Source: Lacihabitans soyangensis (GTDB lineage Bacteria; Bacteroidota; Bacteroidia; Cytophagales; Spirosomataceae). From it: a stretch of DNA of 64,000 nt. Shown piece by piece: positions 14,295-42,464 of this stretch. How positions within the stretch are numbered: position 1 is the stretch's first letter; each line of letters begins with the position of its first letter. The position numbers and the translations under genes were made by a program. The DNA lies in NCBI RefSeq assembly GCF_024343775.1, contig NZ_RJUF01000184.1, forward strand, positions 1 through 64,000, read 5' to 3'. Under the pieces are notes generated by a model, which was not told the origin of the DNA, ran no database searches, and was given only the letters and a program-made list of their open reading frames with translations.

Positions 14295-14359
14295 TGGGAA
14301 TAATGTAAGTTTAAACGATATTTATGTAACACTCCACACCTTCAAACATCAGACCTTTG
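14295..14359 (+). promoter_or_regulatory. stress-regulon promoter element, site 1
   Basis: A composite element with TGGGAAT at 14295, TAAGT at 14306, TGTAACA at 14325 and the -7-like GACCTTTG at 14352-14359. The spacing of 57 bp from the first box to the -7 box and the 21 bp between TGTAAG and TGTAAC match the other sites. It lies 56 bases upstream of the small membrane protein gene at 14416 and would drive the OmpA and beta-barrel genes behind it. Confidence 0.7.
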
Positions 14360-14415
14360 CATGGTGAAAATCATTTCACACTTGCCCCACCAATAGTGGG
14401 ATTTAAACTACGCTG

Positions 14416-14730
14416 ATGAAAAAATATACCATGTATTTCCTGACCTTGTTTATGTTGTTGAGTTTGACACCATTACAATCGAAAGCTGAACCAACTGCCA
14501 TTTTAAAAGAAAGAACCAAAAAAGTTGAGTCTGAAGAAGCCAAGATTTTGTTGGCAAGATTAGATGCTATAAAAGCTATGGACAAATCAGAAATGACCAG
14601 AAGTGAAAAGAAAGAATTGAGAAAAGAAGTGAGAACCATAAAGTCAAATTTGGCAGATTTGGGTTCTGGTGTCTATCTGTCAGCAGGTGGAATCATCATC
14701 ATTCTTCTGATACTAATTCTATTGTTATAA
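14416..14730 (+). CDS. small exported protein with C-terminal membrane anchor
   Basis: A 104-residue protein with a cleavable signal peptide (MKKYTMYFLTLFMLLSLT, probable cut after SKA), a charged coiled-coil region (ERTKKVESEEAKILLARLDA, MTRSEKKELRKEV) and a very hydrophobic C-terminal helix (LSAGGIIIILLILILLL). It would sit in the periplasm, anchored in the inner membrane by its last 18 residues. Proteins of this build are conserved in Bacteroidota and unnamed. It is the first gene behind promoter site 1 and is followed 63 bases later by the OmpA lipoprotein gene. Function unknown. Confidence 0.7.
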   Translation: MKKYTMYFLTLFMLLSLTPLQSKAEPTAILKERTKKVESEEAKILLARLDAIKAMDKSEMTRSEKKELRKEVRTIKSNLADLGSGVYLSAGGIIIILLILILLL

Positions 14731-14793
14731 GTACAAACAACCTACTAGGTCCGCACCTATTTTAATACAGATCGAATTCAAAAAAATACTAAA

Positions 14794-15480
14794 ATGAAGA
14801 AAGTAATAATATCACTTCTGACTATAACTACCTTAATAGTAGGATGTAAGACTACCCAAAGTCAGAAAAAATCTAATCTTAGCAAGACCGAAAAAGGAGC
14901 CATTATTGGTACTTCTTCAGGAGCTGTTTTGGGCGGAATATTGGGCAATAAGAAGAACAGCACCGCTCTTGGAGCTATACTTGGAGCTACCGTAGGTGGA
15001 GCCGTGGGTGTAATCATTGGTAACAAAATGGACAAACAAGCCAAGAAAATCCAAGACGAATTGGGAAATGTAGCCAAAGTAGAACGTGTGGGTGAAGGAA
15101 TAAAACTGACTTTTGACAGCCAATTGCTGTTCGATTTTGGAAAAGCCAGCCTCCGTGAGTCTAACAAAGATGATTTATGGAAATTGGCCAATACACTGAA
15201 ACAATACCCCGATACCGACGTGCTCATAGTAGGTCACACCGACAACGTGGGCTCAGAGTCGTTTAACCAAGCCTTATCAAAAAAAAGAGCTACTGCCGTT
15301 TCTGGTGAACTAACTTCTACTGGAATAAGCAAAACAAGGGTTAAAATCAAAGGCAAAGGCGAAAGTCAACCAACAGAAACCAATGAGACAGACCTTGGTC
15401 GCTCGCAGAATCGTAGAGTGGAAATAGCCATCTATGCCAACAAAAAAATGAAAACTGAGGCCAATAAAGAAGCCATTTAA
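14794..15480 (+). CDS. OmpA family lipoprotein with glycine zipper
   Basis: A 228-residue outer-membrane lipoprotein, YiaD-like. The lipobox is TLIVGC at residues 13-18. Residues 30-80 are a glycine zipper (GAIIGTSSGAVLGGILG, GAILGATVGGAVGVIIG). The C-terminal OmpA domain (about 105-220) binds peptidoglycan through LIVGHTDNVGSESFNQALS and the conserved NRRVEIAI motif. It anchors the outer membrane to the wall. One base separates it from the downstream beta-barrel gene. The preceding gene and promoter site 1 place it in the stress regulon. Confidence 0.9.
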   Translation: MKKVIISLLTITTLIVGCKTTQSQKKSNLSKTEKGAIIGTSSGAVLGGILGNKKNSTALGAILGATVGGAVGVIIGNKMDKQAKKIQDELGNVAKVERVGEGIKLTFDSQLLFDFGKASLRESNKDDLWKLANTLKQYPDTDVLIVGHTDNVGSESFNQALSKKRATAVSGELTSTGISKTRVKIKGKGESQPTETNETDLGRSQNRRVEIAIYANKKMKTEANKEAI

Positions 15481-15481
15481 A

Positions 15482-16069
15482 ATGAAAAATATGAATAAGA
15501 ATACAATATTGATACTCGCTTTGTTCCTGATTTCTTTCGGAACTAAGGCCCAACTTAAATTCGGTGTCAGGGCTGGACTAAACGCCTCCAACGTGTCATT
15601 CCCCAACCTACCTAACAAATCAGAAAAGATAGGTTTCCACGTGGGTTTATTTACGGATATACCCGTAGTAGAGGATTTTATGTCGGTACAACCAGAATTG
15701 AGTTATTCCACAAAAGGAACAGCGTTCAAGGTATTGTCCGAAAAACAATCCATCAACATGAACTACGTAGATTTCTTTTTGCCAGTATCGTTTAAAATGA
15801 GCGATTTTAACATCAATGTGGGTCCATTTGCCTCTTACTTGATTTCTACACCCGATTATACCTACTACAACAACAATTCTGTTTTGGTAGATGCCTTCAA
15901 AAAAATTGATGCTGGCCTTACGGCCGGATTGGGGTACAATTTCAACAAAATGATGATTGGCGTACGCTACAACCAAGGTTTTATAGACGTTACCCAAGAC
16001 AATTCCCGTGCATTGCTCGGAAGTGGTAAAAATGCTGTAGGGCAACTTTCTATAGGCTATAAGTTTTAA
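15482..16069 (+). CDS. PorT-like outer membrane beta-barrel protein
   Basis: A 195-residue protein with signal peptide (NTILILALFLISFGTKAQ) and an eight-stranded barrel of the PorT/OMP_b-brl_2 type. Typical blocks are LKFGVRAGLNASNV, GFHVGLFTDIPV, FMSVQPELSYSTKGTAF, YVDFFLPVSFKM, INVGPFASYLIS and the final MIGVRYNQGFIDV ... LSIGYKF with a terminal Phe. It begins one base after the OmpA stop. Likely a structural or stress-induced outer-membrane protein. The first ATG at 15482 is nine bases before a second possible start. Confidence 0.85.
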   Translation: MKNMNKNTILILALFLISFGTKAQLKFGVRAGLNASNVSFPNLPNKSEKIGFHVGLFTDIPVVEDFMSVQPELSYSTKGTAFKVLSEKQSINMNYVDFFLPVSFKMSDFNINVGPFASYLISTPDYTYYNNNSVLVDAFKKIDAGLTAGLGYNFNKMMIGVRYNQGFIDVTQDNSRALLGSGKNAVGQLSIGYKF

Positions 16070-16079
16070 GTCAATACTT

Positions 16080-16113
16080 AATATTCCAGAGGCGAGATTT
16101 CTTCTGGAATATT
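16080..16113 (+). terminator. intercistronic stem-loop
   Basis: AATATTCCAGA (16080-16090) pairs perfectly with TCTGGAATATT (16103-16113) across a 12-base loop. No U-tract follows, so it may end transcription weakly or stabilise the upstream mRNA. Confidence 0.55.
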
Positions 16114-19211: not shown

Positions 19212-22200
19212 TTACATGAAACAAGCGTTTATTTTGCTCAAAAGTAATTTTTCGTCTATGGGCTTTGAGATATAATCGTTCATACCCAAAGTCTTACACT
19301 TTTCAACATCTACGGAGGTTACGTCTGCCGTCAGGGCTATTATGGGGATATCAGATTTCATTATTTGTCTGATATGCTCGGTAGCTTCAAAACCGTTCAT
19401 AATGGGCATTTGTAGGTCCATCAAAACTATATCAAATACCTCATTTTCAAGTTTTTCTATAGCTTGAAGACCATTGTTTGCAATTTCAACCTCGAAATCA
19501 AAGTCTATCAGAATGATTTTTATCAGAAACTGGTTGAGCGGCATATCCTCCACTACCAATATTCTTTTTTTCGGCTCATTCGTTTTGGGTATGGGTGTCA
19601 CAGATGCTTCTATTTTCGATAACTCCCCTATCGTATCCTGACTCGGAATCTCAAAATCTAGAACAAAACCAAAAGTAGAACCAATTCCTAGCTCACTTTT
19701 GATGGTGATGTGCCCATTTTGAAGTTCGACGAGCTGTTTCACAATAGCCAAACCAAGACCCGTGCCGCCAAATGAACTGGTGGTTTCTTTGCTGGCTTGT
19801 TCAAAATTGTTGAAAATTTGATGCAACTTGCACTGTTCTATTCCAATGCCTGTGTCCGTAACACTAAACTCCAAGGTTACTTTATTTGCGGTTTCATTTA
19901 GTTTTTTTACCCCAAAAACAATCTTTCCCTGACTTGTAAACTTCACGGCATTGCTTATCAAATTAAGTATTATTTGACGCAATCGCATAGGATCCCCCAG
20001 AAGGAAATTTGGAATATCGGGGTCATAATCCTTTATAAACTCTAGATTTTTTTCTTTTATTTTTAGTTCAAACAGTTGAACCATAGTATCTAAAGTAACG
20101 GCCAGGTCAAACTTTATTTCTTCAAAGGACATTTTACCTGCATCTATTTTGGCTAAATCCAGTATGTCATTTATCAAAATAACCAAAGCATCCCCTGAGG
20201 TTTTTATGGCGTTTATGTACTCTCTTTGAGCGTTGTTCAGTTCGGTTTTCAAAACCACATTCGTAAAGCCCAAAATGGCATTCATGGGGGTACGTATTTC
20301 GTGACTCATGTTGGCCAAAAACTGTTGCTTGGCCTTAACCGCCGACTCAGCGATTTTGGTTTTTTCGTCGGCATTGTTTTTAGCGTCTATCAGCTCCGCC
20401 TTGGTGTGTATTTGTGTGGTCACTTCATGGGCAATTACCACCACACCTGTAATCTCGTCATTTATCTCATAATAAGGCTGGTACACAAAGTTGAAATAGA
20501 CATTTTCTAACTTTCCACTTCTTTGAATAGAAACCAAATATTCGTAACCCTCAAAAGGCTTACCGGTTTTAATCACCTCCTCAATAATGGCCGGAATTGT
20601 ACTTTCCCGTAGCTCGGGCATAACATCCAAAAGTAGCTTCCCTTCAATATCCCTTCCTTTTCCCCAAATATCCTTAATACTGTCGTTGGCCAAAGAGATG
20701 CGTGAGTCTTCACCCAGCAATATGGCAAAAGCAAAAGGCGACTGCATCAACAATCTGTTGTATCGAATGTTGCTATTTTCTATGGTCTGGTGGGCTTCTT
20801 TTTCAAGATTCAGCTGAGCCTCTAGTTCTAGTTTCTGTCGCATTTGCTGTTCTACAGCCAGTCGCTTCACCTCGGTTATATCGGAGATAGTTAAGACAAT
20901 CAAATCTTCATTCTGACTTTTTTGTTGGATTCTATGGGCATTGAGCAAGAGCGTTTTACGACCTATTTGTTCAAAAGTCTGTTCGACTTCAAAGTCCTGA
21001 AATCTGTTGTTCTTAGGAATAATATCCTCTAAAAGTTCTCTTAGGGCAGGTATATTCCATTCGGCATTGTTAATTTTATAAATAGAAACACCCAACAAAT
21101 GATCCTCCGCTACTTTAAACATTTTGCAAAAAGAACTATTGGCAGACTTAACCCTGATATTTCTATCGAGAATCAACACTGGCTCATGAACCGTGGAGAT
21201 AATCCCCTCATAATAAGTATATAACTCCTCTATTTGTAGTATTCGGGCATTGAGTTCTTGGTTACTGGTGGTGAGCTCTTCGTTCGTTGACTCTATCTCT
21301 TCTTTTGAGGTTTCCAGCTCTTCGTTGAGGCTTTGGACTTCTTCGTTGCTCGATATTATTTCTTCGTTGGCACTTTGAAGTTCTTCATTAGCCGCTTCTT
21401 GGTCATGCATAATGGAACCCATGTCAGCTCTGGCGGCTGTCAATTCTTCCTCAAGTTTTTTAATTCTTCGGTCTTTTGCCAAAGAATTGTTTTTGGTGCC
21501 ATGCGGGATAGCCTCGGGTAGCTCTAATTGCTGCTCTGTAAAAACCACCATCAAAAGCGGCTCTTCGTTTTCTATTTTGAAAGGTGCTACCTCTATATTG
21601 ACAATCCTGACCATGTTGGGAATCAAGCCACGGTGCATTTCTATTCCCGTTTTCTTAATGACCTGCTTGGTTTTAATGGCGTGGTGAATGGCATTTCTTA
21701 GTTCAAAAGTTATTTCCTCATGGGCCATTTTTAGAATATTGAATGAGGCCTTTCCTGAAGAATTCTGAAGATAGGTGCCAGTTGGTCCTTTGAATTGCAA
21801 AATCTCTAGTTCGTAGTTTATGATTACGCTGGCGGGCACATATTGGGCCAAAAGCACTGCATCAAAGGTATTTCCGAGGTTTGAACTGGGCTGATTGTTG
21901 AGGTTTTTCTTTATTGTTGGAAGGATAGTTCTGTTCTTCTCAGCGTTGATCGTAATCGGCAAACGCGTGGTGAGATCTACATTTTTCACCAATCCCGAGT
22001 TTTGTTTGCGACTGTAAAATTTACATTTTTTGTTCACTATCGAGAACAACTTGGCTGAAGAACCTATGGTCTCGGATTTACCGAGAATCAGATATCCGCC
22101 ATCATTGAGTGCATAATGAAAGGTGTTAATACACTTTTTTTGATAGAAAGTATCCAGATATATCATGAAATTTCGGCAGCTGATCAGGTCCATTCTCGAA

Positions 22201-23171
22201 AAAGGAGGATCGTTGAGAATGTTGTGCTGAGCAAACACACATACGTCGCGAAGCGATTTCACAATTCGGTATTTATCCTTTGACTTCGTAAAAAACTGTC
22301 TCAGTCGTTTAGGAGACACGTTTTTCAACTGACTCTCGGTATATTCACCATTACGAGCCAAGCCGATGGCCTCTGCACTAAGATCAGAAGCAAAAATCTG
22401 AAATGGAATATTAACAGATTGGCTTTGCTGGATTTCAAGCAATGCAATAGCAATGGAGTAAACCTCCTCACCTGAGGCACAGGCTGCCACCCAAATCCTG
22501 ATGGTTTCACCTTCTTTTTTAGATTTTATAATTCGAGGCAGAATACTCTTCTTTAACAATAAAAAAGTCTCTGGGTCTCTGAAAAACTCGGTTACGTTGA
22601 TCAATAAGTCCTGATAAAGGAGGTCTATTTCAATCGGATTCTCTATCAAAAAGTCGGCATATATATGGATGGACGCCAATTTTAGAATCATCATGCGTCT
22701 CAACATCCGACGTTTGACGGTATTCATTTTGTAATGGAAAAAATCAACGTTTTTTTTAATCAAAATCAGGTTCAGGATTTTGGCCAAATCTGGATTTTCA
22801 TTTTCTATTTCATCTTCAGGATTTATTTTCTTCAGACTTCTATTAACGAGCGGATGCTTACTTATCCAATTTATTTCCTCAGCTATTTCTTTCGGTGTCA
22901 TCACAAAATCTACTATACCTTCATTAATAGCAGACTGAGGCATGCTTTGATATTTGGCAGACTCATCTTGTGCAAAGGTTATCCCGCCGGCCAGTTTTAT
23001 TTCTTTCAGACCTTTGGTGCCGTCGTTGGCACTACCTGATAGAACAATGCCAATCACATTTTCTTTATGGGTCTCAGCGAGAGATTCGAATAAACCACTA
23101 TGGACTAAAAGTCCATAGTTTTCGTACAGACTGAAAGTCTGCCTATTCAACGATGAAATTTGTATTGTCAT
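19212..23171 (-). CDS. CheB-CheR-PAS hybrid histidine kinase, N-terminus cut off by an IS
   Basis: The reading frame holds 1319 codons, but its first about 26 come from the inserted element. From GLFESLAETHKENVIG on it is the rest of a CheB methylesterase domain, including VLSGSANDGTKGLKEIKLAG. CheR follows (VKRRMLRRMMILKL, the SAM motif IRIWVAACASGEEVYSIA, SCRNFMIYL). Then come a coiled coil (ANEELQSANEEIISSNEEV), two PAS domains, HisKA (NMSHEIRTPMNA), HATPase (NLISNAVKF, DTGIGI, GGTGLGLAIVKQ) and a receiver (DIVLMDLQMPIMNG, ISKP). The CheB start lies across the IS at 23640-24101. The kinase part is intact and could still be made from an internal start. It seems a cytosolic sensor, not part of a flagellar system, since no che genes are nearby. 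Confidence 0.85.
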   Translation of the reverse strand: MTIQISSLNRQTFSLYENYGLLVHSGLFESLAETHKENVIGIVLSGSANDGTKGLKEIKLAGGITFAQDESAKYQSMPQSAINEGIVDFVMTPKEIAEEINWISKHPLVNRSLKKINPEDEIENENPDLAKILNLILIKKNVDFFHYKMNTVKRRMLRRMMILKLASIHIYADFLIENPIEIDLLYQDLLINVTEFFRDPETFLLLKKSILPRIIKSKKEGETIRIWVAACASGEEVYSIAIALLEIQQSQSVNIPFQIFASDLSAEAIGLARNGEYTESQLKNVSPKRLRQFFTKSKDKYRIVKSLRDVCVFAQHNILNDPPFSRMDLISCRNFMIYLDTFYQKKCINTFHYALNDGGYLILGKSETIGSSAKLFSIVNKKCKFYSRKQNSGLVKNVDLTTRLPITINAEKNRTILPTIKKNLNNQPSSNLGNTFDAVLLAQYVPASVIINYELEILQFKGPTGTYLQNSSGKASFNILKMAHEEITFELRNAIHHAIKTKQVIKKTGIEMHRGLIPNMVRIVNIEVAPFKIENEEPLLMVVFTEQQLELPEAIPHGTKNNSLAKDRRIKKLEEELTAARADMGSIMHDQEAANEELQSANEEIISSNEEVQSLNEELETSKEEIESTNEELTTSNQELNARILQIEELYTYYEGIISTVHEPVLILDRNIRVKSANSSFCKMFKVAEDHLLGVSIYKINNAEWNIPALRELLEDIIPKNNRFQDFEVEQTFEQIGRKTLLLNAHRIQQKSQNEDLIVLTISDITEVKRLAVEQQMRQKLELEAQLNLEKEAHQTIENSNIRYNRLLMQSPFAFAILLGEDSRISLANDSIKDIWGKGRDIEGKLLLDVMPELRESTIPAIIEEVIKTGKPFEGYEYLVSIQRSGKLENVYFNFVYQPYYEINDEITGVVVIAHEVTTQIHTKAELIDAKNNADEKTKIAESAVKAKQQFLANMSHEIRTPMNAILGFTNVVLKTELNNAQREYINAIKTSGDALVILINDILDLAKIDAGKMSFEEIKFDLAVTLDTMVQLFELKIKEKNLEFIKDYDPDIPNFLLGDPMRLRQIILNLISNAVKFTSQGKIVFGVKKLNETANKVTLEFSVTDTGIGIEQCKLHQIFNNFEQASKETTSSFGGTGLGLAIVKQLVELQNGHITIKSELGIGSTFGFVLDFEIPSQDTIGELSKIEASVTPIPKTNEPKKRILVVEDMPLNQFLIKIILIDFDFEVEIANNGLQAIEKLENEVFDIVLMDLQMPIMNGFEATEHIRQIMKSDIPIIALTADVTSVDVEKCKTLGMNDYISKPIDEKLLLSKINACFM

Positions 23172-23658
23172 TAGAATCAGGATTTCTATGATGTTCCAAA
23201 TATTCGTTTACCATTTCATCTGTTATATTGCCTGTACTCCAACATCCAAATCCTATTGCCCAAAAGTGACGACCCCAATATCTCTTCTTTAACTCCGGAA
23301 ATTCCATCTGCAATTTTCTTGATGAACGCCCCTTTAACAGCTTCACTAAAGTACTCAAATCTTGCGATGGCCTGTATTCTACATGCATGTGAATATGATT
23401 CTTCGATACAACACCTTTCAAAATCTGTACACCTTCTGCCTCACAAATTTGTATCAAGATAGTTCGACAACGTATCTTTATATCACCTTCCAAAACCGAA
23501 TATCTATACTTCGTTGACCATACAATATGAGCAGTCAATCGGGATACTGTATGTCCGCCACTTCTTTGAAATTCCATAACATAAAGTTACAAATTTTTTA
23601 GAAACTAAAGTGACATGCAATAAATTGCATAGTTTTAACTTAATTTGAGACCAATAAA
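23089..23658 (-). mobile_element. IS200/IS605-type element without accessory tnpB
   Basis: A roughly 560-bp insertion inside the CheB-CheR kinase gene. AATAAA is present at both junctions (23089-23094 and 23653-23658), so the inserted length is about 564 bp plus an ambiguous shared hexamer, and no longer target duplication is seen. Both ends carry the subterminal hairpins expected of single-strand transposition: TATGGACT-AAA-AGTCCATA at about 23099-23117, CAGACT-GAA-AGTCTG just inside it, and ATGCAAT-AA-ATTGCAT at 23615-23630. A single transposase gene occupies the middle. Confidence 0.85.
23143..23577 (-). CDS. tnpA: IS200/IS605 family transposase (HUH, Y1 type)
   Basis: A 144-residue Y1 transposase. 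The metal-binding HUH motif is HIHMHVEYRPSQDLS (residues 69-83) and the catalytic Tyr is in DEMVNEYLEHH near residue 130. SRLTAHIVWSTKYRYSVLEG is the usual first strand and LVKLLKGRSSRKLQMEF the helix that follows HUH. It cuts and joins single-stranded ends at the hairpins described for the element. It looks complete and possibly active. It reads in the same direction as the gene it interrupts. Confidence 0.9.
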   Translation of the reverse strand: MEFQRSGGHTVSRLTAHIVWSTKYRYSVLEGDIKIRCRTILIQICEAEGVQILKGVVSKNHIHMHVEYRPSQDLSTLVKLLKGRSSRKLQMEFPELKKRYWGRHFWAIGFGCWSTGNITDEMVNEYLEHHRNPDSNDNTNFIVE

Positions 23659-24101
23659 ACATCTATCGAAATGGCTGCGGCAGTTTTTGAGCGAGGAATT
23701 AATTTTATGTGGCCATCGGTTACTTCTATGCCTTTGTTGGACGGAATCACATACACATTGTTGGGCTTCATTTTCTCCATATCATCAATGTCCTGCACTT
23801 TCATGTTGGTTACTTTCGACAATATTGGAGAGAGCATGCTTTTATGGTCAGGGCTGAGGTGCTGCACCACTATATAAGCCATGCCTGTATCCGGCGAGAG
23901 ATTCTGAAGCAGTTGAATGATAGCCTCTAAGCCACCAGCCGAAGCCCCAATGGCCACTATCGTAAAAGTCGAACTTTCGACCTCTTTCTTTACAATGCTT
24001 TTTCTCTTTGCCTTTGTGATTTTTGTGCCAGTAGTAATACTTTTTGGCAACACTTCGAGTGCTTCGGGTACATTTCTATTAGGTGGCGAATTTGCTTTCA
24101 T
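23640..24101 (-). pseudogene. N-terminal CheB fragment of the IS-split hybrid kinase
   Basis: A 153-codon frame whose first 145 residues are the start of the kinase described at 19212-23171. A Lys-rich linker leads into the CheB domain: FTIVAIGASAGGLEAIIQLL (active-site Ser in GASAGG), TGMAYIVVQHLSPDHKSML (catalytic His in QHLSPDH), then NNVYVIPSNKGIEV. The last nucleotides of the gene (SIDVLL) run into the IS, which supplies VSN and a stop. Joined to GLFESL on the other side, the frame is restored, so the gene was intact before insertion. The esterase domain has lost its catalytic C-terminal Asp. Confidence 0.8.
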
Positions 24102-24273
24102 GGCTAAATGCTGTTAGACAACGAAGGTAGTCTAATAAACCAGCTTCCAACCATATTAGCCATTTAGTTTCTCACAAACTATCGACAATCATAAATTATG
24201 ACTTTCAGAATCTGCTTTTAATCCCAAATCGGTCAAAGAATAGTCTTATTTTATTCAAAATCAATAAATTATG

Positions 24274-24338
24274 TGTGAATCTTGAAAATACCCTTCTAAA
24301 TTCTGTAATGGTTTAAAGGAGTAACAAAACCAAATTTG
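24274..24338 (+). promoter_or_regulatory. stress-regulon promoter element, site 2
   Basis: TGTGAAT at 24274-24280, TGTAATG at 24304 and a -7-like CAAATTTG at 24331-24338. Spacing is 57 bp from first box to -7 box, as at the other sites, although the -7 box itself differs, which shows that the conserved part is the xAnnTTTG pattern. It lies 39 bases upstream of the SOUL-type gene. Confidence 0.65.
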
Positions 24339-24923: not shown

Positions 24924-25799
24924 ATGGAAATGAAGCAAGAAATCGATGTATTGGATTTTGAAGACATTGAGCGATTCAACGAGGATTATTTCTTAACCCA
25001 AAAACCTGTGGTTATAAAAGGTCTGGCCGACCAAAAAGTAGCAGGCAAGCAGTGGAACATCAAATATTTCAAAGAGAAAGCAGGCGATTTAGAAGTTAGT
25101 GTCTTTGATAATACCAACAAGAAAAGTGCGAAATCAGCCTTTACTTCGCCAGACCTCAAAATGAATTTTGGAGATTATTTGTCTATCATACAAAAAGATG
25201 AGACAACTGACCTGAGGATTTTCGGGATGCGGATTTCGAAAGAACTACCACAACTTAACAGTGATTTTCCTTGTCCCAGTATTTTTGAAGGTATGCTCCA
25301 AAACCTCGGTCTGATGTTTTTCGGTGGCAAAAACACCACGGTCAGGATTCACTACGACATTGACATGTCCAACGTGCTGCTCACCCACTTTGGCGGAAAG
25401 AAAAAAGTCGTACTGGTAGCACCCGAATACACCAATTTGCTTTATTGCCTACCCTACTGCACCTACTCGCTCATCAACCTCGATAAACTGGATTTTGTAA
25501 AATACCCGGGCTTGAAATTCATAAAAACCTATGAGTGTACCCTTAACCATGGCGATTCTATATTTATGCCCAGTGGCTACTGGCATTATATGACTTACCT
25601 AGAAGGCAGCATGTCGGTAAGTTACCGAAAGTTATCGCCCTCGATTAAAACCAACCTAAGAGGCTTAATGAACATCACACTCCTGATGCCGTTTGACAAA
25701 CTAATGGGTAAAACCTTGGGTGCAAAATGGCTAGCAGCAAAAGAAAACATTGCACAAAAAAGAGCCGATAAGGCCATCAGGAATTTGAGCTTTTCCTAA
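24924..25799 (+). CDS. cupin-like (JmjC-type, Cupin_8) protein
   Basis: A 291-residue cytosolic protein with a JmjC/cupin-8 core. The Fe(II)-ligand pattern begins in VRIHYDIDMSNVLLTHFGGK (His and Asp, HxD) and the distal His lies in HGDSIFMPSGYWHYMTYLEG. Upstream, KPVVIKGLADQKVAGKQWNI is the typical entry helix. The family includes 2-oxoglutarate-dependent hydroxylases; the substrate is not evident. The C-terminus (LMNITLLMPFDKLMGK) is helical. Cotranscribed with the SOUL-type gene; the promoter of the BON gene overlaps the end of this unit. Confidence 0.75.
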   Translation: MEMKQEIDVLDFEDIERFNEDYFLTQKPVVIKGLADQKVAGKQWNIKYFKEKAGDLEVSVFDNTNKKSAKSAFTSPDLKMNFGDYLSIIQKDETTDLRIFGMRISKELPQLNSDFPCPSIFEGMLQNLGLMFFGGKNTTVRIHYDIDMSNVLLTHFGGKKKVVLVAPEYTNLLYCLPYCTYSLINLDKLDFVKYPGLKFIKTYECTLNHGDSIFMPSGYWHYMTYLEGSMSVSYRKLSPSIKTNLRGLMNITLLMPFDKLMGKTLGAKWLAAKENIAQKRADKAIRNLSFS

Positions 25800-25801
25800 T
25801 G

Positions 25802-25865
25802 TGTGAATTATACAAATCCAATCCCATATTTTACAACAACCTCACAATCAATATCCCCACCTTTA
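25802..25865 (+). promoter_or_regulatory. stress-regulon promoter element, site 3
   Basis: TGTGAAT at 25802-25808, TACAACA at 25832 in place of TGTAACA, and CACCTTTA at 25858-25865. The first box to -7 distance is 56 bp, one less than most sites. It begins three bases after the cupin stop and lies 37 bases before the BON gene start, and so should serve that gene alone. Confidence 0.6.
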
Positions 25866-27350: not shown

Positions 27351-27354
27351 AATG

Positions 27355-27419
27355 TGTGAATGATGTAAGCCAAGTTTGGAATTTTGTAACACTCGAGGAG
27401 CAAGGAGCACCTACCTTTG
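27355..27419 (+). promoter_or_regulatory. stress-regulon promoter element, site 4
   Basis: TGTGAAT at 27355-27361, TGTAAGC at 27364, TGTAACA at 27385 (21 bp after the previous TGTAA) and TACCTTTG at 27412-27419, a perfect TAnnTTTG -7 box. First box to -7 box is 57 bp. It starts five bases after the reductase stop and lies 25 bases before the small membrane protein gene at 27444. Confidence 0.75.
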
Positions 27420-28687: not shown

Positions 28688-29485
28688 ATGAATACCAAAA
28701 CAGATAGTGATGGCAAAAAATATCTATTTTCGAGAAGCTTAGACACGATTTTTTTGGCTGTCAATAATGTTTTTAAGTTCATAGGTTTGTTTTTCAAAGA
28801 AGCTTTCACAGCACCTTTTGAATGGAAAGAAACTATCAATCAGTGCTTTAATGTCGGTTTCAAATCCCTGCCACTGGTTTCTTTGACGGGTTTTATCATC
28901 GGTATCGTTTTTACCAAACAATCACGCCCATCGCTTTCCACTTTTGGAGCCAGTTCATGGTTGCCTTCTCTGATTTCTATAGCCATCATCAGAGCTTTGG
29001 CTCCCTTGGTAACGGCTCTAATAGCGGCCGGAAAAGTAGGTTCCAACATCGGAGCAGAACTGGGCTCCATGAAAGTCACCGAGCAAATAGACGCCATGGA
29101 GGTTTCGGCTACCAATCCCTTCAAGTATTTGGTAGTCACTCGGGTCATTGCTACCACATTCATGATGCCTGTATTAGTGCTTTATTCTGGCCTAGTAGGT
29201 ATGTTAGGATCATTTATGAACATCCACCAAAACGAACAAACCAGTTTTTCAGCCTTCATAAAAAACGCCTTCAGTACCATTTCATTTTTAGATATTAACT
29301 CCTCCATTTTCAAGGCCGTTTGTTATGGATTTACGATTGGTGTAGCAGGCTGTTATCAAGGATATTATGCCGAAAATGGAACGCAAGGTGTCGGAAAAGC
29401 GGCCAATACTGCGGTTGTGGTAGCTATGTTTCTGATTTTCATTGAAGAAATGATCATCGTTCAATTTGTAAATTCTATTCGATAA
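28688..29485 (+). CDS. mlaE: MlaE-type ABC permease, copy 1
   Basis: A 265-residue inner-membrane permease of the MlaE family. It has about five helices and the family-typical stretches SLPLVSLTGFIIGIVFTKQS, RALAPLVTALIAAGKVGSNI (the cytosolic EAA-like coupling loop) and GAELGSMKVTEQIDAMEVSA. With the MlaF-type ATPase six bases downstream and the MCE protein after it, it moves phospholipids between inner and outer membrane. MlaA, MlaB and MlaC are not in the operon, as usual for Bacteroidota. A 36-residue hydrophilic N-terminus precedes the first helix. Confidence 0.9.
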   Translation: MNTKTDSDGKKYLFSRSLDTIFLAVNNVFKFIGLFFKEAFTAPFEWKETINQCFNVGFKSLPLVSLTGFIIGIVFTKQSRPSLSTFGASSWLPSLISIAIIRALAPLVTALIAAGKVGSNIGAELGSMKVTEQIDAMEVSATNPFKYLVVTRVIATTFMMPVLVLYSGLVGMLGSFMNIHQNEQTSFSAFIKNAFSTISFLDINSSIFKAVCYGFTIGVAGCYQGYYAENGTQGVGKAANTAVVVAMFLIFIEEMIIVQFVNSIR

Positions 29486-29490
29486 AATTT

Positions 29491-30258
29491 ATGATAAAAA
29501 ATGATTCAAAACCAACCGTTATCAGCATAAAGAACCTCAAAAAGTCGTTTGGTAGCCTGAAGGTCTTAGACGGGGTAAATCTAAATATCAAATTGGGTGA
29601 AAATTTGGCAGTTTTAGGCAAATCAGGAAGTGGAAAATCTGTTTTGATAAAAATCATTTCGGGCCTCCTGAAACCCGACGCAGGAACTGTGGAAGTTTTG
29701 GGTTTGGAAGTAGATAAAATCAGTACAAAAGAACTTAGGACATTGAGGTCTAAAATTGGTTTTTCTTTCCAAAACAGTGCCTTATATGACAGCATGACGG
29801 TCAGAGAAAATCTAGCTTTTCCTTTAATTCGGAACAAAACAGACCTTTCCAAAAGCGAAATACAACATGCCATTGAGGAAGTTTTAAACCAAGTAGGTTT
29901 GCCACAAACTATAAGCCAAATGCCCTCAGAGTTGTCTGGCGGTCAAAGAAAAAGAATAGGGATAGCCAGAACGCTCATCCTAAAACCCGAAATAATGCTG
30001 TATGACGAACCCACAGCAGGTTTGGATCCTATCACTAGCAGCGAAATCAACAGTCTAATCAAAAAAGTACAAACACAGTATAAAACCAGCTCAATCATCA
30101 TTACCCACGACCTCACTTGTGCCAAAAACACAGCTGACAATGTGGCAATTTTGGTCAACGGTAAGTTTTTACAATCAGGAAGTTTTGAGGAGGTTTTCAA
30201 GTCTGAAAACGAAATAGCTCAATCTTTTTATGAATACAATTTTATAAATGAAAAATGA
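29491..30258 (+). CDS. mlaF: MlaF-type ABC transporter ATPase, copy 1
   Basis: A 255-residue ABC ATPase. Walker A is GKSGSGKSVLIK (about residues 47-58), Q-loop FSFQNSALYDSMTVREN, signature LSGGQRKRIGIARTL, Walker B LMLYDEPTAGLD and the H-loop Thr-His in IIITHDLT. The Q-loop FQNSALYDS sequence is typical of MlaF/MCE ATPases. It overlaps the MCE gene by four bases (ATGA), so ATPase and substrate-binding subunits are coupled. Confidence 0.9.
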   Translation: MIKNDSKPTVISIKNLKKSFGSLKVLDGVNLNIKLGENLAVLGKSGSGKSVLIKIISGLLKPDAGTVEVLGLEVDKISTKELRTLRSKIGFSFQNSALYDSMTVRENLAFPLIRNKTDLSKSEIQHAIEEVLNQVGLPQTISQMPSELSGGQRKRIGIARTLILKPEIMLYDEPTAGLDPITSSEINSLIKKVQTQYKTSSIIITHDLTCAKNTADNVAILVNGKFLQSGSFEEVFKSENEIAQSFYEYNFINEK

Positions 30259-31241
30259 AAGCATTGAAAAATAACCGGCCGGTGATAGTTGGCATGTTCA
30301 TTTTATTGGGTTTGGTGATATTGGTTCTAACCGTTTTTACGTTGGGCAATCAAAAGAAAACCTTTGTAAAAACCTTTACACTTTTTGCCGTTTTTGATAA
30401 TGTGGGTGGTCTACTGAAAGGCGGCAATGTTTGGCTATCTGGGGTTAAAATTGGCACCATCAAGAAAATCAGTTTTTATGGAGATTCCAAAGTAATGGTG
30501 GCAATGAATATTGAACAAGAAGCGGAGCCCTATATCCGCAAAAACGCCAAGGCAAAAATAGGATCAGACGGCTTGATAGGCAACAAGATAGTCATCATTT
30601 ATGGTGGGGATAAATCTGTCCCACAGGTAGTTAAAGGGGATTTCTTAAAGGTAGAAAATGGCCTCAGTACCGACGATATGCTAGCTACTTTGCAAGAAAA
30701 CAACAAGAATATCCTAGAGATAACAAAAGACTTTAAAAGCATCAGCAAAAAAATAGATACTGGCGAAGGTGCTTTAGCTACCTTACTGAACGACCCTGCC
30801 ATATCGAATCAATTAAGAGCATCCACCAATAATCTGCAAGCCACTTTAATCAATCTCAAAACAGTTTCTGAAGGCAGCAAGGCGGTTTTGGCTAATCTGG
30901 AAGGATTCTCAAAAAAACTGGTTCTACCGGGTAACTCAATCAACGACATAGCCAGCGATACCATCATTTACAAAAGTCTAAAAACCACTTTGGCAGAGCT
31001 CAATGAAGCCTCAAAATCAGTAACGAAGTTCACCGAAAACCTCAAATCTGCCAGTGACAAATTAGGTCAGAAAAACAATGCGGTGGGCGTATTACTCAAT
31101 GACTCCGAAACCGCCGATGCCATGAAAACCACTCTAAAAAATCTAGAATCCGGCAGCAAAAAACTCGATGAAGACCTAGAGGCTTTACAACACAATTTTC
31201 TACTAAGAAGATTTTTCAAGAAAAAGGCAAAAAACAAATAA
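30255..31241 (+). CDS. mlaD: MlaD/MCE domain protein, copy 1
   Basis: A 328-residue periplasmic MCE protein with one N-terminal transmembrane helix (IVGMFILLGLVILVLTVFTL). The MCE domain (about 38-115) includes FDNVGGLLKGGNVWLSGVKI and AKAKIGSDGLIGNKIVIIYG. The long C-terminus is a predicted coiled coil and ends in LLRRFFKKKAKNK. MCE hexamers form the lipid tunnel of Mla-like transporters. It has no partner in the usual MlaC position. The second MCE gene at 36270 ends in the same LKGYFKKKAK type of tail, so the two operons arose by duplication. Confidence 0.9.
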   Translation: MKALKNNRPVIVGMFILLGLVILVLTVFTLGNQKKTFVKTFTLFAVFDNVGGLLKGGNVWLSGVKIGTIKKISFYGDSKVMVAMNIEQEAEPYIRKNAKAKIGSDGLIGNKIVIIYGGDKSVPQVVKGDFLKVENGLSTDDMLATLQENNKNILEITKDFKSISKKIDTGEGALATLLNDPAISNQLRASTNNLQATLINLKTVSEGSKAVLANLEGFSKKLVLPGNSINDIASDTIIYKSLKTTLAELNEASKSVTKFTENLKSASDKLGQKNNAVGVLLNDSETADAMKTTLKNLESGSKKLDEDLEALQHNFLLRRFFKKKAKNK

Positions 31242-31612
31242 TTTAACCTTTAATAATCAATCAGTATAAAGTAGGGCTCTTAATATTGAAATAATTAAGG
31301 AATACATTTATTCAAAATACTATAAACCAAAGCTTTAGAGATTACTAAATAAATACTAATGGTTCCAAATATTTTCTGTGCAGTCCGTTGTAAAATTTCG
31401 CTACTAATAATTTCACTAGAAAAAAGAATGCCAAAAGCGAAATTTTTCAGAGGATCATTGCACAGAAAGTGTTTTTTTTGACGGTTGGCCGCAGGCATTC
31501 TTTTTTTTCAAAAAAAAAGAATGCCTGCCTGGCAAGGCACGCAAAGTATATATTCATTGAGTTCTTTAACCCAGATTCTTTAAAAAAAATATTCATTACT
31601 ACTTCCAAAAGG
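31242..31612 (+). other. intergenic region with 18-bp perfect hairpin
   Basis: Nothing coding is seen between the first MCE gene and promoter site 5. The main structure is a perfect 18-bp stem with a two-base loop, made of 31491-31508 (GCAGGCATTC followed by eight T) and 31511-31528 (eight A then GAATGCCTGC). It relates to the degenerate repeat around 5440-5515. It lies about 250 bases after the MCE stop and may serve as a terminator on either strand; its T/A core would itself act as the U-tract. Confidence 0.5.
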
Positions 31613-31677
31613 TGTGAATATTGAAACATTCTACCATTTTTATGTAACAAAAAAACTCCTTTTCCGCATGACCTTTA
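31613..31677 (+). promoter_or_regulatory. stress-regulon promoter element, site 5
   Basis: TGTGAAT at 31613-31619, TGTAACA at 31643 and GACCTTTA at 31670-31677; the first box to -7 distance is exactly 57 bp. The middle TAAGT box is weak here (AAACA). It lies 39 bases before the YceI gene. Confidence 0.65.
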
Positions 31678-33809: not shown

Positions 33810-33828
33810 GTATCCCAAAGGTTAAATG

Positions 33829-33893
33829 TGTGAATTATATAAGTGTTTTTAAGTATTCTATAACAAGGCGAACCACTATTTGCCTGACCTTTG
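33829..33893 (+). promoter_or_regulatory. stress-regulon promoter element, site 6
   Basis: TGTGAAT at 33829-33835, TATAAGT at 33838, TATAACA at 33859 and GACCTTTG at 33886-33893. First box to -7 box is 57 bp and TATAA to TATAA is 21 bp. It lies 20 bases after the permease stop and 35 bases before the beta-barrel start at 33928. Confidence 0.75.
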
Positions 33894-34630: not shown

Positions 34631-35389
34631 ATGGTAATCGAGATAAGAAATATTTTTGACGGTATCGGAGCATTTATTTTGTTTATTTTTAGATTCTTCA
34701 AGGAGCTTTTCAAACCACCTTTGGAGTTAAAGGAATTCATAAAACAATGTTATGTAATTGGTTACAAATCACTTCCCTTGGTAGCCATAACCGGATTTAT
34801 AATGGGATTGGTGCTAACACTGCAATCTAGACCTACACTTGCAGAGTTCGGGGCCGAGTCCTGGTTGCCAGGTATGGTTGCACTCTCTTTGATTAGAGAA
34901 ATTGCTCCCGTGATAACGGCACTGATTTGTGCGGGTAAGGTAGCCTCTGGGATCGGAGCAGAGCTGGGTTCAATGAAAGTGACCGAACAAATAGATGCTA
35001 TGGAGGTTTCGGCTATTAATCCATTCAAATATTTGGTAGTTACCCGAATACTCGCAGCCACGCTCATGATTCCGCTGCTGGTAGTATTTGCTGATGGCAT
35101 TGGCATATTTGGTGGATTTGTAGGTTATAACATCCACAGCGAGCTGAACATTATCAGATACAATTCGCTAGTTTTTGAAACCCTAGGTTTTGTGGATATT
35201 TTTCCGGCAACTATCAAGACGTTCTTCTTTGGTTTTTTTATTGGCACCATTGGCTGTTACATGGGTTTTACGGCCTCTAATGGCACTGAAAGCGTCGGAA
35301 AAGCAGCCAATTCAGCAGTGGTTTATGCATCACTGGCCATTTTTATAATCGATATGTTGGCTGTTCAGTTGACAGATTTGATTTTCTGA
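34631..35389 (+). CDS. mlaE: MlaE-type ABC permease, copy 2
   Basis: A 252-residue MlaE permease, paralogous to the one at 28688. It shares SLPLVAITGFIMGLVLTLQS, SLIREIAPVITALICAGKVA and GAELGSMKVTEQIDAMEVSA. Here the first helix begins closer to the N-terminus. Both copies have the same neighbour order permease, ATPase, MCE, so a whole operon was duplicated. The cognate MlaF is 90 bases downstream. No TGTGAAT-type element precedes it. Confidence 0.9.
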   Translation: MVIEIRNIFDGIGAFILFIFRFFKELFKPPLELKEFIKQCYVIGYKSLPLVAITGFIMGLVLTLQSRPTLAEFGAESWLPGMVALSLIREIAPVITALICAGKVASGIGAELGSMKVTEQIDAMEVSAINPFKYLVVTRILAATLMIPLLVVFADGIGIFGGFVGYNIHSELNIIRYNSLVFETLGFVDIFPATIKTFFFGFFIGTIGCYMGFTASNGTESVGKAANSAVVYASLAIFIIDMLAVQLTDLIF

Positions 35390-35480
35390 AGAATTATTTT
35401 TTACAAACAAAAGCCTTTTTTAAAACCCAACCATGTTACTGTAAGGCCTTATTTGACTAGTTACGAAAAATCTCATTTCA

Positions 35481-36221
35481 GTGAAAAAACAAACTCCAAT
35501 AATAGAAATCAAAGGTCTTTTCAAATCCTTTGGCAAAGATAAAGACGTTCTGAGAGGTGTCAATATCAATGTCAATAAAGGAGAGAACTTGGTTGTTTTG
35601 GGGAAATCTGGCTCGGGAAAATCCATCACCATCAAGTGTTTGGTGAGGTTGGTGGAAGCCGACAAAGGCGAAATTAAGGTCTTTGGCACAGAACTAACAA
35701 ACCTTGCAGAAGACGAGCTGAATCAGGTCAGACTACGAATAGGTTTTTTATTCCAAAATGGTGCCTTATACGACTCCATGTCTGTTAGAGAAAACCTGGC
35801 ATTTCCCCTGCAAAGGCATAGACCAGAATTCACCGATACACAGATAAACATAGCCATTGAGGAAACTTTAGAAAGCGTAGGATTGATAGAAGCCATAGAC
35901 AAAATGCCCTCAGAACTATCAGGAGGCATGCGGAAACGCGTTGGATTGGCAAGAACACTCATCCTTAAACCCGAAATACTTCTATACGACGAACCCACCA
36001 CAGGTCTGGACACCATCACTTCTAGGGAGATCAGCGAGTTGATCATATCCATCCAGATGAAATTCAAAACCACCTCCATCATCATCACCCACGACATGGC
36101 CTGTGCCAAGTTTACAAGCAACCGAATCGTGATATTAAGAGACGGTGTGGTGTACACCGAAGGTACTTATCAAGACTTAGAACAAAGCGAAGATCAATGG
36201 GTTAGATCATTTTTTATATAA
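35481..36221 (+). CDS. mlaF: MlaF-type ABC transporter ATPase, copy 2
   Basis: A 246-residue ABC ATPase starting with GTG. Walker A is GKSGSGKSITIK, Q-loop LFQNGALYDSMSVREN, signature LSGGMRKRVGLARTL, Walker B LLYDEPTTGLD and H-loop TSIIITHDM. It mirrors the first copy at 29491. It works with the permease before it and the MCE protein after it. No other in-frame start gives the family's N-terminus, which supports the GTG. Confidence 0.9.
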   Translation: MKKQTPIIEIKGLFKSFGKDKDVLRGVNINVNKGENLVVLGKSGSGKSITIKCLVRLVEADKGEIKVFGTELTNLAEDELNQVRLRIGFLFQNGALYDSMSVRENLAFPLQRHRPEFTDTQINIAIEETLESVGLIEAIDKMPSELSGGMRKRVGLARTLILKPEILLYDEPTTGLDTITSREISELIISIQMKFKTTSIIITHDMACAKFTSNRIVILRDGVVYTEGTYQDLEQSEDQWVRSFFI

Positions 36222-36269
36222 AACCAAAAAGAAAATATTCCGAAATACCCGAAATAAAAATTAATAGAA

Positions 36270-37154
36270 ATGAAGAAGGATTCAGGATTTAAATGGAAAC
36301 TAGGCGTGTTTGTCACTGCTGGAATTCTCTTTTTCGCAGTCACGATATATTTTGTAGGCAAACAAAAAAACCTATTTGGTTCGGTAATTCACCTAAAATC
36401 CCACTTCAGAACGGTAAGCGGCTTAAAACTAGGCAATAACGTTCGTTTTTCAGGCATTAATATTGGCACCGTCGACGCCATAGAAATGATATCTGATACC
36501 TCGGTAATGGTGGAGTTGGTTATACAGAAAAATGCACAACCATTTATAAAAACCGACGCAAAGGTTGGAATCAGTTCGGACGGACTTATGGGTGAAAAAG
36601 TACTGGTTATTTCTCCGGGCACATTTACTTTTAAGTCTGTAAAAGACAATGACATTTTGAGATCAAAAACGGCCATAGAAATGGAGGATGTCATGTTGAG
36701 CATGAAAAAAAGCATGGATAATGTGGCTCTCATATCTGACAACTTGGCCCAGTTCAGTTATAAAATCAACAATAGCAATGGTGCACTTTCAAAGCTAATT
36801 TCAGACGAGGATTTTTCCAAGAGTTTAGAAATGACACTGATAAATCTACAGAACAGTTCTGACGAATTCGCCAAATTTGCAGTTAATATGAACAACGGCA
36901 AAGGTGCATTGTCAAAACTTATGATTGATGAGAAATTCGGAAAAACGCTAGACTCGACCATGATGAATATTCAAAACGGCACCAAAGGACTCAACGAAAC
37001 CATTGATGCTGCCAAAAGCAGTATTTTACTAAAGGGATACTTCAAGAAAAAAGCCAAAGAAGACTTAAAAATAGAAACCGAAAAACAAAAACTTCGGGAC
37101 GCCAAATACGATACAAAAAATAAGATAAAAACCCCTAAGGACAGCCTAAAATAA
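36270..37154 (+). CDS. mlaD: MlaD/MCE domain protein, copy 2
   Basis: A 294-residue MCE protein with an N-terminal membrane helix (WKLGVFVTAGILFFAVTIYF). The MCE domain holds TVSGLKLGNNVRFSGINIGT and AKVGISSDGLMGEKVLVISP. Two near-identical segments follow (NSNGALSKLISDEDF, NNGKGALSKLMIDEKFGK), a short internal duplication. The tail ends LLKGYFKKKAKEDLK plus a Lys-rich extension. It is 35 residues shorter than copy 1 in the coiled coil. Confidence 0.9.
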   Translation: MKKDSGFKWKLGVFVTAGILFFAVTIYFVGKQKNLFGSVIHLKSHFRTVSGLKLGNNVRFSGINIGTVDAIEMISDTSVMVELVIQKNAQPFIKTDAKVGISSDGLMGEKVLVISPGTFTFKSVKDNDILRSKTAIEMEDVMLSMKKSMDNVALISDNLAQFSYKINNSNGALSKLISDEDFSKSLEMTLINLQNSSDEFAKFAVNMNNGKGALSKLMIDEKFGKTLDSTMMNIQNGTKGLNETIDAAKSSILLKGYFKKKAKEDLKIETEKQKLRDAKYDTKNKIKTPKDSLK

Positions 37155-37220
37155 ACAATATAAGTTATTCAAAGCTAAATCCTAAGACGCAATTTCACTC
37201 TGCATTTAGCCTTTTGAAGG

Positions 37221-37284
37221 TGTGAATATTATAATAATGTGCAAGAATTTCGTAACAATTTTATTATAGAAAAAGAGACCTTTG
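37221..37284 (+). promoter_or_regulatory. stress-regulon promoter element, site 7
   Basis: TGTGAAT at 37221-37227, TAATA at 37232, CGTAACA at 37251 and GACCTTTG at 37277-37284. The first box to -7 distance is 56 bp, one short of the majority. It lies 22 bases before the 40-residue basic protein gene and should drive the GH130 and glycosyltransferase genes. Confidence 0.65.
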
Positions 37285-40841: not shown

Positions 40842-40862
40842 GCAAAGGCAGAGATGCCTAGG

Positions 40863-40927
40863 TGTGAATTTTATAAGTTTTCGGGAATATTGTGTAATGC
40901 ATAGAGAGTTCATGATTCCGACCTTTG
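40863..40927 (+). promoter_or_regulatory. stress-regulon promoter element, site 8
   Basis: TGTGAAT at 40863-40869, TAAGT at 40874, TGTAATG at 40893 and GACCTTTG at 40920-40927. First box to -7 box is 57 bp. It begins 22 bases after the glycosyltransferase stop and lies 43 bases before the lmo0937-type gene. Confidence 0.7.
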
Positions 40928-41129: not shown

Positions 41130-41479
41130 AGAATAGGAAACAATTAAAAATCGATGAAATGAAATCAGGAAAAGTATTATTAGGCGTATTGGCTGGTGCA
41201 GCCGTTGGAGCTATTGCAGGTATCTTATTTGCTCCGGATAAGGGTTCTAGAACCAGAAAACAAATTATGGACAAAAGCGAAGACTATGCCGAAGGACTGA
41301 AAGAAAAGTTTGAGGATATGACCACTAATTTGACCAAAAAATACAGCAATGCCATGCAAGAAGTAGACAGTTTGGTAGCTAAAGGCAAAAACAAGTATAA
41401 CCAAGCCATGCACGAAGTGGACCAATTGGTGACTAACGGCAAAAACAAAATAATGGATCAGAAAAACGAAAATGTCTGA
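41126..41479 (+). CDS. YtxH domain-containing protein
   Basis: A 117-residue YtxH protein. The membrane segment GKVLLGVLAGAAVGAIAGIL and the following FAPDKGSRTRKQI are the hallmarks. The rest is a long amphipathic coiled coil with two near-repeats (NAMQEVDSLVAKGKNKYNQA and AMHEVDQLVTNGKNKIMDQ). The start ATG at 41126 overlaps the preceding stop; an upstream frame lies within the lmo0937-type gene. YtxH proteins are general-stress induced; activity unknown. Confidence 0.85.
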   Translation: MKNRKQLKIDEMKSGKVLLGVLAGAAVGAIAGILFAPDKGSRTRKQIMDKSEDYAEGLKEKFEDMTTNLTKKYSNAMQEVDSLVAKGKNKYNQAMHEVDQLVTNGKNKIMDQKNENV

Positions 41480-41491
41480 GAAATAACAAAG

Positions 41492-41524
41492 CACCTAGCC
41501 TTACGATGGGGCTGGGTGTTTTTT
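41492..41524 (+). terminator. Rho-independent terminator
   Basis: CACCTAGCC (41492-41500) pairs with GGCTGGGTG (41510-41518), a nine-pair stem with one G-T wobble, followed by six T. It follows the YtxH stop by 12 bases. Some read-through into the holin-like gene is possible. Confidence 0.8.
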
Positions 41525-41540
41525 AAATACGAACAAAGCT

Positions 41541-41894
41541 ATGGACACAAATTATGAAATTGTAGAAACGGTTTTTAAGAGAATTGAGAATTTGACTAGC
41601 AATCAAACCGAACTTATAAAACTCAAATTGTATAATAAAACCGCGGATTTGGCCACGTTTTTGGCCATGAAAGCCATAATAGTTACGGTTTTGGGTTTGT
41701 TTTTCCTTTTCTTGAATATAGGTCTGTCTCTATGGTTGGGTGAAATACTCGGCAAAATCTACTATGGATTCTTTCTTTTAGCGGCATTTTATGCTATTGC
41801 CGCTATTTTCATCAAAACAAGTATTTACAAATATCTTCAACTTCAAATCAACTTAATGGTACTTACAAAAATCCTTAAAGATGAAAACTTATGA
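41541..41894 (+). CDS. phage-holin-like (YqjE-type) membrane protein
   Basis: A 117-residue protein. An N-terminal amphipathic helix (KRIENLTSNQTELIKLKLYN) leads into two membrane helices (FLAMKAIIVTVLGLFFLFLN and IYYGFFLLAAFYAIAAIFI). The layout is that of the Phage_holin_3_6/YqjE family, which occurs in stress operons and not in phages here. It overlaps the next gene by four bases. Confidence 0.7.
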   Translation: MDTNYEIVETVFKRIENLTSNQTELIKLKLYNKTADLATFLAMKAIIVTVLGLFFLFLNIGLSLWLGEILGKIYYGFFLLAAFYAIAAIFIKTSIYKYLQLQINLMVLTKILKDENL

Positions 41895-42286
41895 GTAACC
41901 CCAAGGAAATTTTAGAGTTGAGAATCCAGGCATTAGAGGAACAACAAAAACTGGAGCTTGTACTTATAAAAGAAGATATTCGCTCAATATTTAGTAGTTT
42001 AAGTCCTTTCGAAATCATTAAAAACGCTATTAGCTCTGAGAATACAAGCGAGAGTTTGAGCTCAAATCTGATGGGTGATGTAATAGGAATGTCAACTGGA
42101 TTTATTTCAAAAAAATTAATGTTTGGCACTACTTCCAACCCGTTCAAAAAAGTAATTGGCTCCATTATGCAGTTTGCTATTGGCAGATTTGTGGCAAATA
42201 ACTCAGAAAGGTTGCAGGCCATAGGTGAGGTATTGATCCAAAAACTCACGCCCACCCAAGTCTTCAAAGGAGAAGAAGAAAAGTAA
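41891..42286 (+). CDS. YqjK/YqjD-like companion protein
   Basis: A 131-residue protein with a helical N-terminus (ILELRIQALEEQQKLELVLI) and a Gly-containing hydrophobic middle (LMGDVIGMSTGFISKKLMFG, FKKVIGSIMQFAIGRFVAN) that may be membrane associated. It overlaps the holin-like gene (ATGA) and probably binds the membrane together with it. The family name is uncertain. Confidence 0.5.
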   Translation: MSNPKEILELRIQALEEQQKLELVLIKEDIRSIFSSLSPFEIIKNAISSENTSESLSSNLMGDVIGMSTGFISKKLMFGTTSNPFKKVIGSIMQFAIGRFVANNSERLQAIGEVLIQKLTPTQVFKGEEEK

Positions 42287-42399
42287 TCATACCATTTGAA
42301 AAAATTCAAAACAAACTCAATCTCTCTTTTCTGAGAAGTTGATTTTTTAGCTAAAAGAAATTCACAAATAATTGAATTTCAATTAAATAAAACTAAATG

Positions 42400-42464
42400 T
42401 GTGAATTTCATAAACTTTGAATAACATTCTGTAAGACTTATGAAAATCAAAAAGCTGACCTTTG
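42400..42464 (+). promoter_or_regulatory. stress-regulon promoter element, site 9
   Basis: TGTGAAT at 42400-42406, TAAAC at 42411, TGTAAGA at 42430 and GACCTTTG at 42457-42464, with 57 bp between first and -7 box. It lies 37 bases before the CsbD gene. Confidence 0.7.

Follow-up and report, generated by a model that had tools for sequence, protein, structure and literature searches.

Nine composite sites and a candidate regulator gene

The window analysed here, 64,000 nucleotides of Lacihabitans soyangensis (contig NZ_RJUF01000184.1, positions 1 to 64,000), carries nine copies of a composite promoter-like site, all on the forward strand, and a gene for an AraC-family protein that ends 3.1 kb ahead of the first of them and is the candidate for the regulator that reads them. 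A preliminary description of this DNA had placed the first boxes at 14295, 24274, 25802, 27355, 31613, 33829, 37221, 40863 and 42400, and all nine were recovered at these coordinates. Site 1 (14292–14359), which runs from the tandem half-sites to the −7 box as GACCTTTG, precedes a 104-aa open reading frame (ORF), OmpA and barrel genes, and site 2 (24271–24338) precedes SOUL and cupin genes. Site 3 (25799–25865) lies before a BON gene (ATG at 25902), and site 4 (27352–27419) before genes for a Thivi_2564-type small membrane protein, a Dps-like protein and Mla proteins. Site 5 (31610–31677) is followed by YceI and Usp genes, site 6 (33826–33893) by an outer-membrane barrel gene, site 7 (37218–37284) by a 40-aa ORF, GH130 and glycosyltransferase genes, site 8 (40860–40927) by genes for a DUF5670 small protein and YtxH, and site 9 (42397–42464) by CsbD.

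Seven sites have 57 bp between the first box, counted from its first base, and the −7 box, and sites 3 and 7 (25802 and 37221) have 56 bp, exactly as had been described. The first ATG follows 21–56 nt past the −7 box. Some of the box spellings originally given are stricter than the real ones: TGTGAAT is exact in eight of the nine sites (the one at 14295 reads TGGGAAT, within ATGTGGGAAT), TAAGT is exact in three (14295, 33829 and 40863), and so is TGTAACA (14295, 27355 and 31613), while the −7 box ends with TTTG in seven sites and with TTTA in those at 25802 and 31613. Leave-one-out matrix scores of the nine sites range from 31.1 to 51.3 bits, compared with a maximum of 17.4 bits in 200 first-order Markov shuffles of the window (one strand each), so the motif survived this comparison, which had been set beforehand. 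When both strands were scanned with the site matrix, no further position in the window exceeded 6 bits.

The AraC-family gene (10642–11205, forward strand) encodes 187 aa and is followed on the same strand by genes for a PAS hybrid histidine kinase (11217–13574; assigned with Pfam) and a receiver-only protein (13567–13992), for which Response_reg is the sole Pfam match. HTH_18 matches the AraC protein with E = 2.9e-15 and 56.7 bits (cut-off 33.6), as expected of an AraC-type double helix-turn-helix, and the C-terminal part of its AlphaFold model (mean pLDDT 86.0) matches the DNA-binding domains of AraT, YesN, MarA, SoxS, Rob and AraC. The N-terminal domain is modelled as a beta-alpha-beta fold and is metallochaperone-like; it resembles Atx1 and GolB with a probability of 0.98–0.99 and a TM-score of 0.66–0.69, yet the Foldseek E-value is only 0.14–0.19. 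No Pfam family, HMA included, matches the N-terminal 80 residues, and the CxxC metal-binding motif of HMA is replaced by SxxC (MVSNRC). The operon recurs among relatives with enough room around the AraC gene: a kinase lies within three genes downstream in 67 of 69, and 56 of the 69 have a short receiver-like ORF besides. Judged from this shared operon, the kinase and receiver probably signal to the AraC protein. The receiver was rejected as the DNA binder, as a Pfam search of 13567–13992 found no DNA-binding domain.

Architecture of the composite site

A profile of 178 sites from relatives matches itself only at a shift of 21 bp (+7.8 bits over 13 columns); all other shifts between 5 and 32 are negative, and the best inverted match is 3.9. 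This direct repeat supports the earlier suggestion of half-sites in tandem two helical turns apart, and a CRP/FNR-like palindrome was rejected because the inverted match stays below the direct one (3.9 versus 7.8 bits). The repeat unit is (G/A)A(A/G)TnnTRTAAC. Half-site 1, TGTG-GAATnATRTAAC, additionally carries TGTG, and half-site 2 reads (A/G)A(A/G)TTnTRTAAC. Conservation is confined to the boxes and does not extend to the spacer columns.

The position of the −7 box was determined in 208 sites chosen by their half-sites alone (five shuffles contained 1–7 half-site pairs each). The box lies at offset 0 in 139 of them, at −1 in 23 and at +1 in one; it is found elsewhere within 12 nt in two, and 43 have no box of at least 6 bits. 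Within the box, AnnTTT is nearly invariant in the 178 sites, and the first base is T in only 24% (in one of the nine window boxes). Compared with the Bacteroidota sigma-A consensus, TAnnTTTG, the box is weakened, mostly by C or G replacing the T. In Flavobacterium psychrophilum, the sigma-A −7 box is mapped at −12 to −5 (PMC9723704); with the −7 box of the composite sites placed likewise, the TRTAAC cores fall at approximately −60 to −55 and −39 to −34.

The mostly missing first T would suit an extracytoplasmic function (ECF) or other alternative sigma factor that reads TGTAACA...ACCTTTG directly, with the upstream boxes secondary, and GTAAC is similar to an ECF −35 element. However, the 178 sites have no conserved CGT, the mark of one type of ECF −10 element, in the columns between TRTAAC and AnnTTTG, and the ECF reading was rejected on this ground. 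Moreover, a 21-bp direct repeat and a TGTG box that follows the protein clade (see below) are not expected of a sigma factor, and the downstream element AnnTTTG resembles the sigma-A type (PMC9723704). Direct reading by an alternative sigma factor is therefore very unlikely.

Distribution of the sites in the genome and among relatives

R1, a sequence-only model built from the nine window sites and used for the genome-wide searches, found 17 sites at E ≤ 4.3e-4 in the 5.65-Mb genome (nine in the window and eight outside it); the next match has E = 0.07. A strict gapped pattern gave five matches and its reversed control none. Genes behind the outside sites include those for a DUF1003 protein, a pterin carbinolamine dehydratase and several proteins without a Pfam match, and the weakest outside site has a heavy-metal operon downstream.

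To relate the sites to the AraC gene, 80 loci were fetched by the AraC protein alone. They are the best 80 of 559 relatives, comprise 1.38 Mb and include Flavobacterium, Emticicia, Paludibacter, Prolixibacteraceae, Lutibacter and an Ignavibacteria metagenome-assembled genome; gene calls in the relatives were mechanical. At a threshold of at least 18 bits, 75 of the 80 loci contain 218 sites and one Markov shuffle contains none (223 versus one at 16 bits or more), with the proviso that loci selected by AraC cannot reveal how much of the regulon lies far away. The recurrence of the same boxes across the phylum already contradicts the notion that a single intergenic segment was recently duplicated to give the sites, which would then have no regulation in common. 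Nine copies in 28 kb of one strain might suggest such an origin, but the spacers have diverged while the boxes are kept and the downstream genes are unrelated, which makes it hardly credible.

In the reverse direction, sites were taken by DNA alone from 40 of the 46 genomes with at most four sites (G025, G059, G122, G127, G176 and G190 were omitted). In these few-site genomes, 24 of 55 sites have an AraC relative no more than 1 kb away, where 0.05 would be expected, and 37 have one within 10 kb. Two larger site searches, of 200 family genomes and 392 phylum genomes, were tallied by eye from genome rows and used the stricter filters applied above 40 genomes, by which weak sites are lost. In the family sample, sites occur in 64 genomes and AraC matches at E ≤ 1e-25 in 165. 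At least five sites were found in 16 of the 37 family genomes with AraC at E ≤ 1e-70 and in two of the 163 others (G084 and G105). In the phylum sample, AraC at E ≤ 1e-70 was found in 18 genomes, of which 12 have at least three sites; as many sites occur in 4 of the 154 genomes whose match is weaker and in a single one of the 220 that gave no match at E ≤ 1e-30; this last genome, G210, has a CxxC AraC relative (37%) with a site 179 bp after it. The comparative evidence as a whole (shuffles, the eight further genomic sites, the loci of relatives, the repeat and the spacing) agrees with the initial view of a multi-unit regulon with a rigid composite promoter.

The TGTG box varies with the protein clade

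All 80 fetched relatives have the SxxC motif and read MVSxRC, the CxxC paralogs examined read MVCxRC, and 73 of 81 AraC proteins contain a single cysteine. In a tree of 77 rows, a branch with support of 100/98 separates 69 SxxC proteins from eight CxxC rows; three AraC-like rows whose motif could not be read (L195, L211 and L212) were omitted. The TGTG box is present in the best site of 53 of 62 SxxC loci and of none of eight CxxC loci, counts in which the matrix, trained on TGTG sites, favours such sites and relatedness is uncorrected. In a smaller set, the box was found in 14 of 14 sites beside close relatives, in none of eight beside paralogs and in two of eight without AraC within ∼3 kb. 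The TRTAAC repeat is common to SxxC-linked and CxxC-linked sites. Despite the cautions about matrix and relatedness, we consider the clade-tracking TGTG box the best argument from sequence that these sites are read by the AraC protein.

The only close AraC paralog in the genome (C1:203197, 44% identity) ends ∼30 bp before another site. Next to this CxxC paralog are HMBD/HMA heavy-metal genes, separated from it by a TRTAAC tandem site (G000:C1:203197–205337; loci L022 and L033); the paralog is probably a metal regulator that is related and shares the operator core. The Ignavibacteria genome (L148), which is outside Bacteroidota proper, encodes a 75% identical AraC protein and has sites and an ice-binding gene; together with the mixed orders in the tree, it suggests that the regulon may have been passed on horizontally.

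In principle, the site could be read by a different kind of DNA-binding protein (CRP/FNR, LytTR or a response regulator), and the AraC gene would then be only a linked member of the regulon. TGTGA is like a CRP half-site and LytTR proteins also use 21-bp tandem sites, and the kinase and receiver genes are linked to the sites as well. Nevertheless, the weak inverted match, the receiver without a DNA-binding domain and the presence of sites beside metal-type AraC paralogs too, where they vary with the AraC clade, make such a reader unlikely, even though some genomes hold sites without a close AraC.

Several observations weigh against the AraC protein as the common reader. Among the sites of relatives, 31 of 218 are inside mechanically called ORFs, and in the few-site genomes 31 of 55 sites have no AraC within 1 kb. 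The best site lacks the TGTG box in 5 of the 62 SxxC loci, and four more have no site of at least 14 bits. R1 detects no site at E ≤ 1e-3 in nine of the 37 family genomes whose AraC match reaches E ≤ 1e-70; in five of these nine (G163, G185, G191, G197 and G199), the matrix detects diverged sites of 19–30 bits near the AraC gene. G105 has five sites and no AraC at E ≤ 1e-25, G084 has 18 sites and a best AraC E-value of 6.8e-47, and G390 and G574 have two sites and one site, respectively, and no AraC at E ≤ 1e-8. G210 and G215 contain nine and seven sites, yet only CxxC AraC proteins of 35–37%. In G058 (C65:18841–19524), TGTGAAT-type sites occur where only a 46% AraC was found, possibly as a relic or through cross-talk. 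Finally, no site was found before the window's own AraC gene (best matrix score −5.0), and the gene of a 90% identical relative in G080 is likewise without one. With no site ahead of 10642, autoregulation in the window itself was dropped and the claim is restricted to relatives, in which the AraC gene, with the kinase gene behind it, carries the site and is predicted to be autoregulated.

With these points taken into account, the sites very probably form a combined operator and promoter on which the AraC-family activator from 10642–11205 acts. This adds to the preliminary description, which named no regulator: the likely reader is this AraC-type gene, and the system recurs across Bacteroidota.

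Stress and ice-binding genes as putative targets

In the 80 loci, AraC is the first gene after 49 of the 218 sites; 48 of these 49 AraC starts could be placed, at a median of 27 nt past the −7 box. Homologues of the window's 104-aa ORF follow 12 sites and CsbD follows nine, fewer sites precede OmpA, Dps-like and Thivi_2564-type genes, and seven of the 218 have no callable downstream unit. The largest other group of first genes has 31 members, 30 of which match Pfam Ice_binding. One ice-binding first gene encodes the Flavobacterium frigoris PS1 protein of PDB 4nu2 (chain residues 1–248 of 248), and its site is weak, at 19.1 bits.

An Ice_binding search independent of AraC was positive in 62 of 396 class genomes, and the 30 returned best matches, selected by the ice-binding domain only, were tested for sites. 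A same-strand site of at least 10 bits is present in 24 of the 30 loci and one of at least 14 bits in 23, with 2.8% of shuffles reaching 10. In 15 of the 30 the first in-frame ATG is within 150 nt of the box (in seven, the ORF pattern recognised no gene). The search that detected the family in these 62 genomes found no ice-binding gene in the window's own genome, and none in 14 control genomes either, so this result is not by itself proof of absence.

The 'stress' label of the putative regulon derives from its gene content. Because ice-binding genes are among the targets, cold or freezing is no less plausible a trigger than osmotic stress, and the AraC-type regulator probably runs a programme for both cold and osmotic stress. 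The stress cluster of the window also contains two MlaE-MlaF-MlaD-like transporter sets (28688–31241 and 34631–37154). On the reverse strand at 19212–24101, a CheB-CheR-PAS-kinase gene is interrupted by an IS200-like transposase ORF (23143–23577); its CheB match stops in one ORF and picks up again in the other.

Proposed mechanism and significance

We propose that two AraC monomers or one dimer would bind the two same-orientation half-sites 21 bp apart. The second half-site would span approximately −45 to −33, the place of the housekeeping −33 element in the phylum, and the fixed 56–57 bp spacing would allow AraC to contact RNA polymerase on the weakened −7 box and to activate rather than repress. 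The hybrid kinase and the receiver would hand the signal to the AraC protein, with its presumed sensor domain that is metallochaperone-like minus the first cysteine of CxxC, and the regulon would build envelope, osmotic, cold and ice protection. A broader reading is offered tentatively, and we hold it to be rather doubtful: a phylum-wide Bacteroidota master switch for survival of freezing, desiccation and osmotic stress, in which a formerly metal-sensing AraC protein that lost its CxxC would act as the detached DNA-binding output of the hybrid kinase and receiver-only protein and directly control ice-binding (antifreeze) genes.

AraC at araI1/I2 and class-II activators use this half-site geometry. 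The present system shares with these AraC/XylS proteins the AraC-type domain, the 21-bp direct-repeat half-sites and a proximal half-site over −35/−33; the repeat and the fixed spacing reproduce the AraC/XylS hallmark of direct-repeat half-sites near the −35/−33 region. It differs in its metallochaperone-like sensor without CxxC, its phylum-specific −7 box, its operon with a hybrid kinase and receiver, and its many-unit stress regulon. The CxxC metal-linked paralogs (such as C1:203197) have the same domain order by alignment, 44% identity and TRTAAC tandem sites nearby, but they have CxxC instead of SxxC, lack the TGTG box in eight of eight loci and, in the one case examined, have metal genes downstream. 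YesN/AraT two-component regulators similarly combine an AraC-type output with a kinase and receiver; however, their receiver is fused to the AraC domain, whereas here the two are separate proteins.

To our knowledge, Bacteroidota have no established general stress regulator that would be a counterpart of RpoS or SigB. The regulator is of an ordinary kind (AraC family) with an apparently undescribed role: it seems to head a stress and ice-protein regulon that is widespread in Bacteroidota, often autoregulated and marked by an operator of unusually clear definition. The listings of one open-access library yielded no description of this regulon, its regulator or its targets, consistent with the original remark that no named regulator fits the site, and the word AraC does not occur in the main texts of PMC11213822, PMC9723704 and PMC13413566. 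With AraC protein, kinase and receiver encoded together, one may ask how the receiver, in which no DNA-binding domain was found, could direct an activator that is a protein of its own. As operator and protein clade co-vary, DNA recognition in the AraC family becomes testable by swaps. Together, the analysis provides a concrete candidate regulator with its operator and a list of predicted targets, which many genomes allow to be compiled directly, and bacterial DUF3494 ice-binding proteins, with the operator in 24 of the 30 loci sampled by that domain, gain a likely controller.

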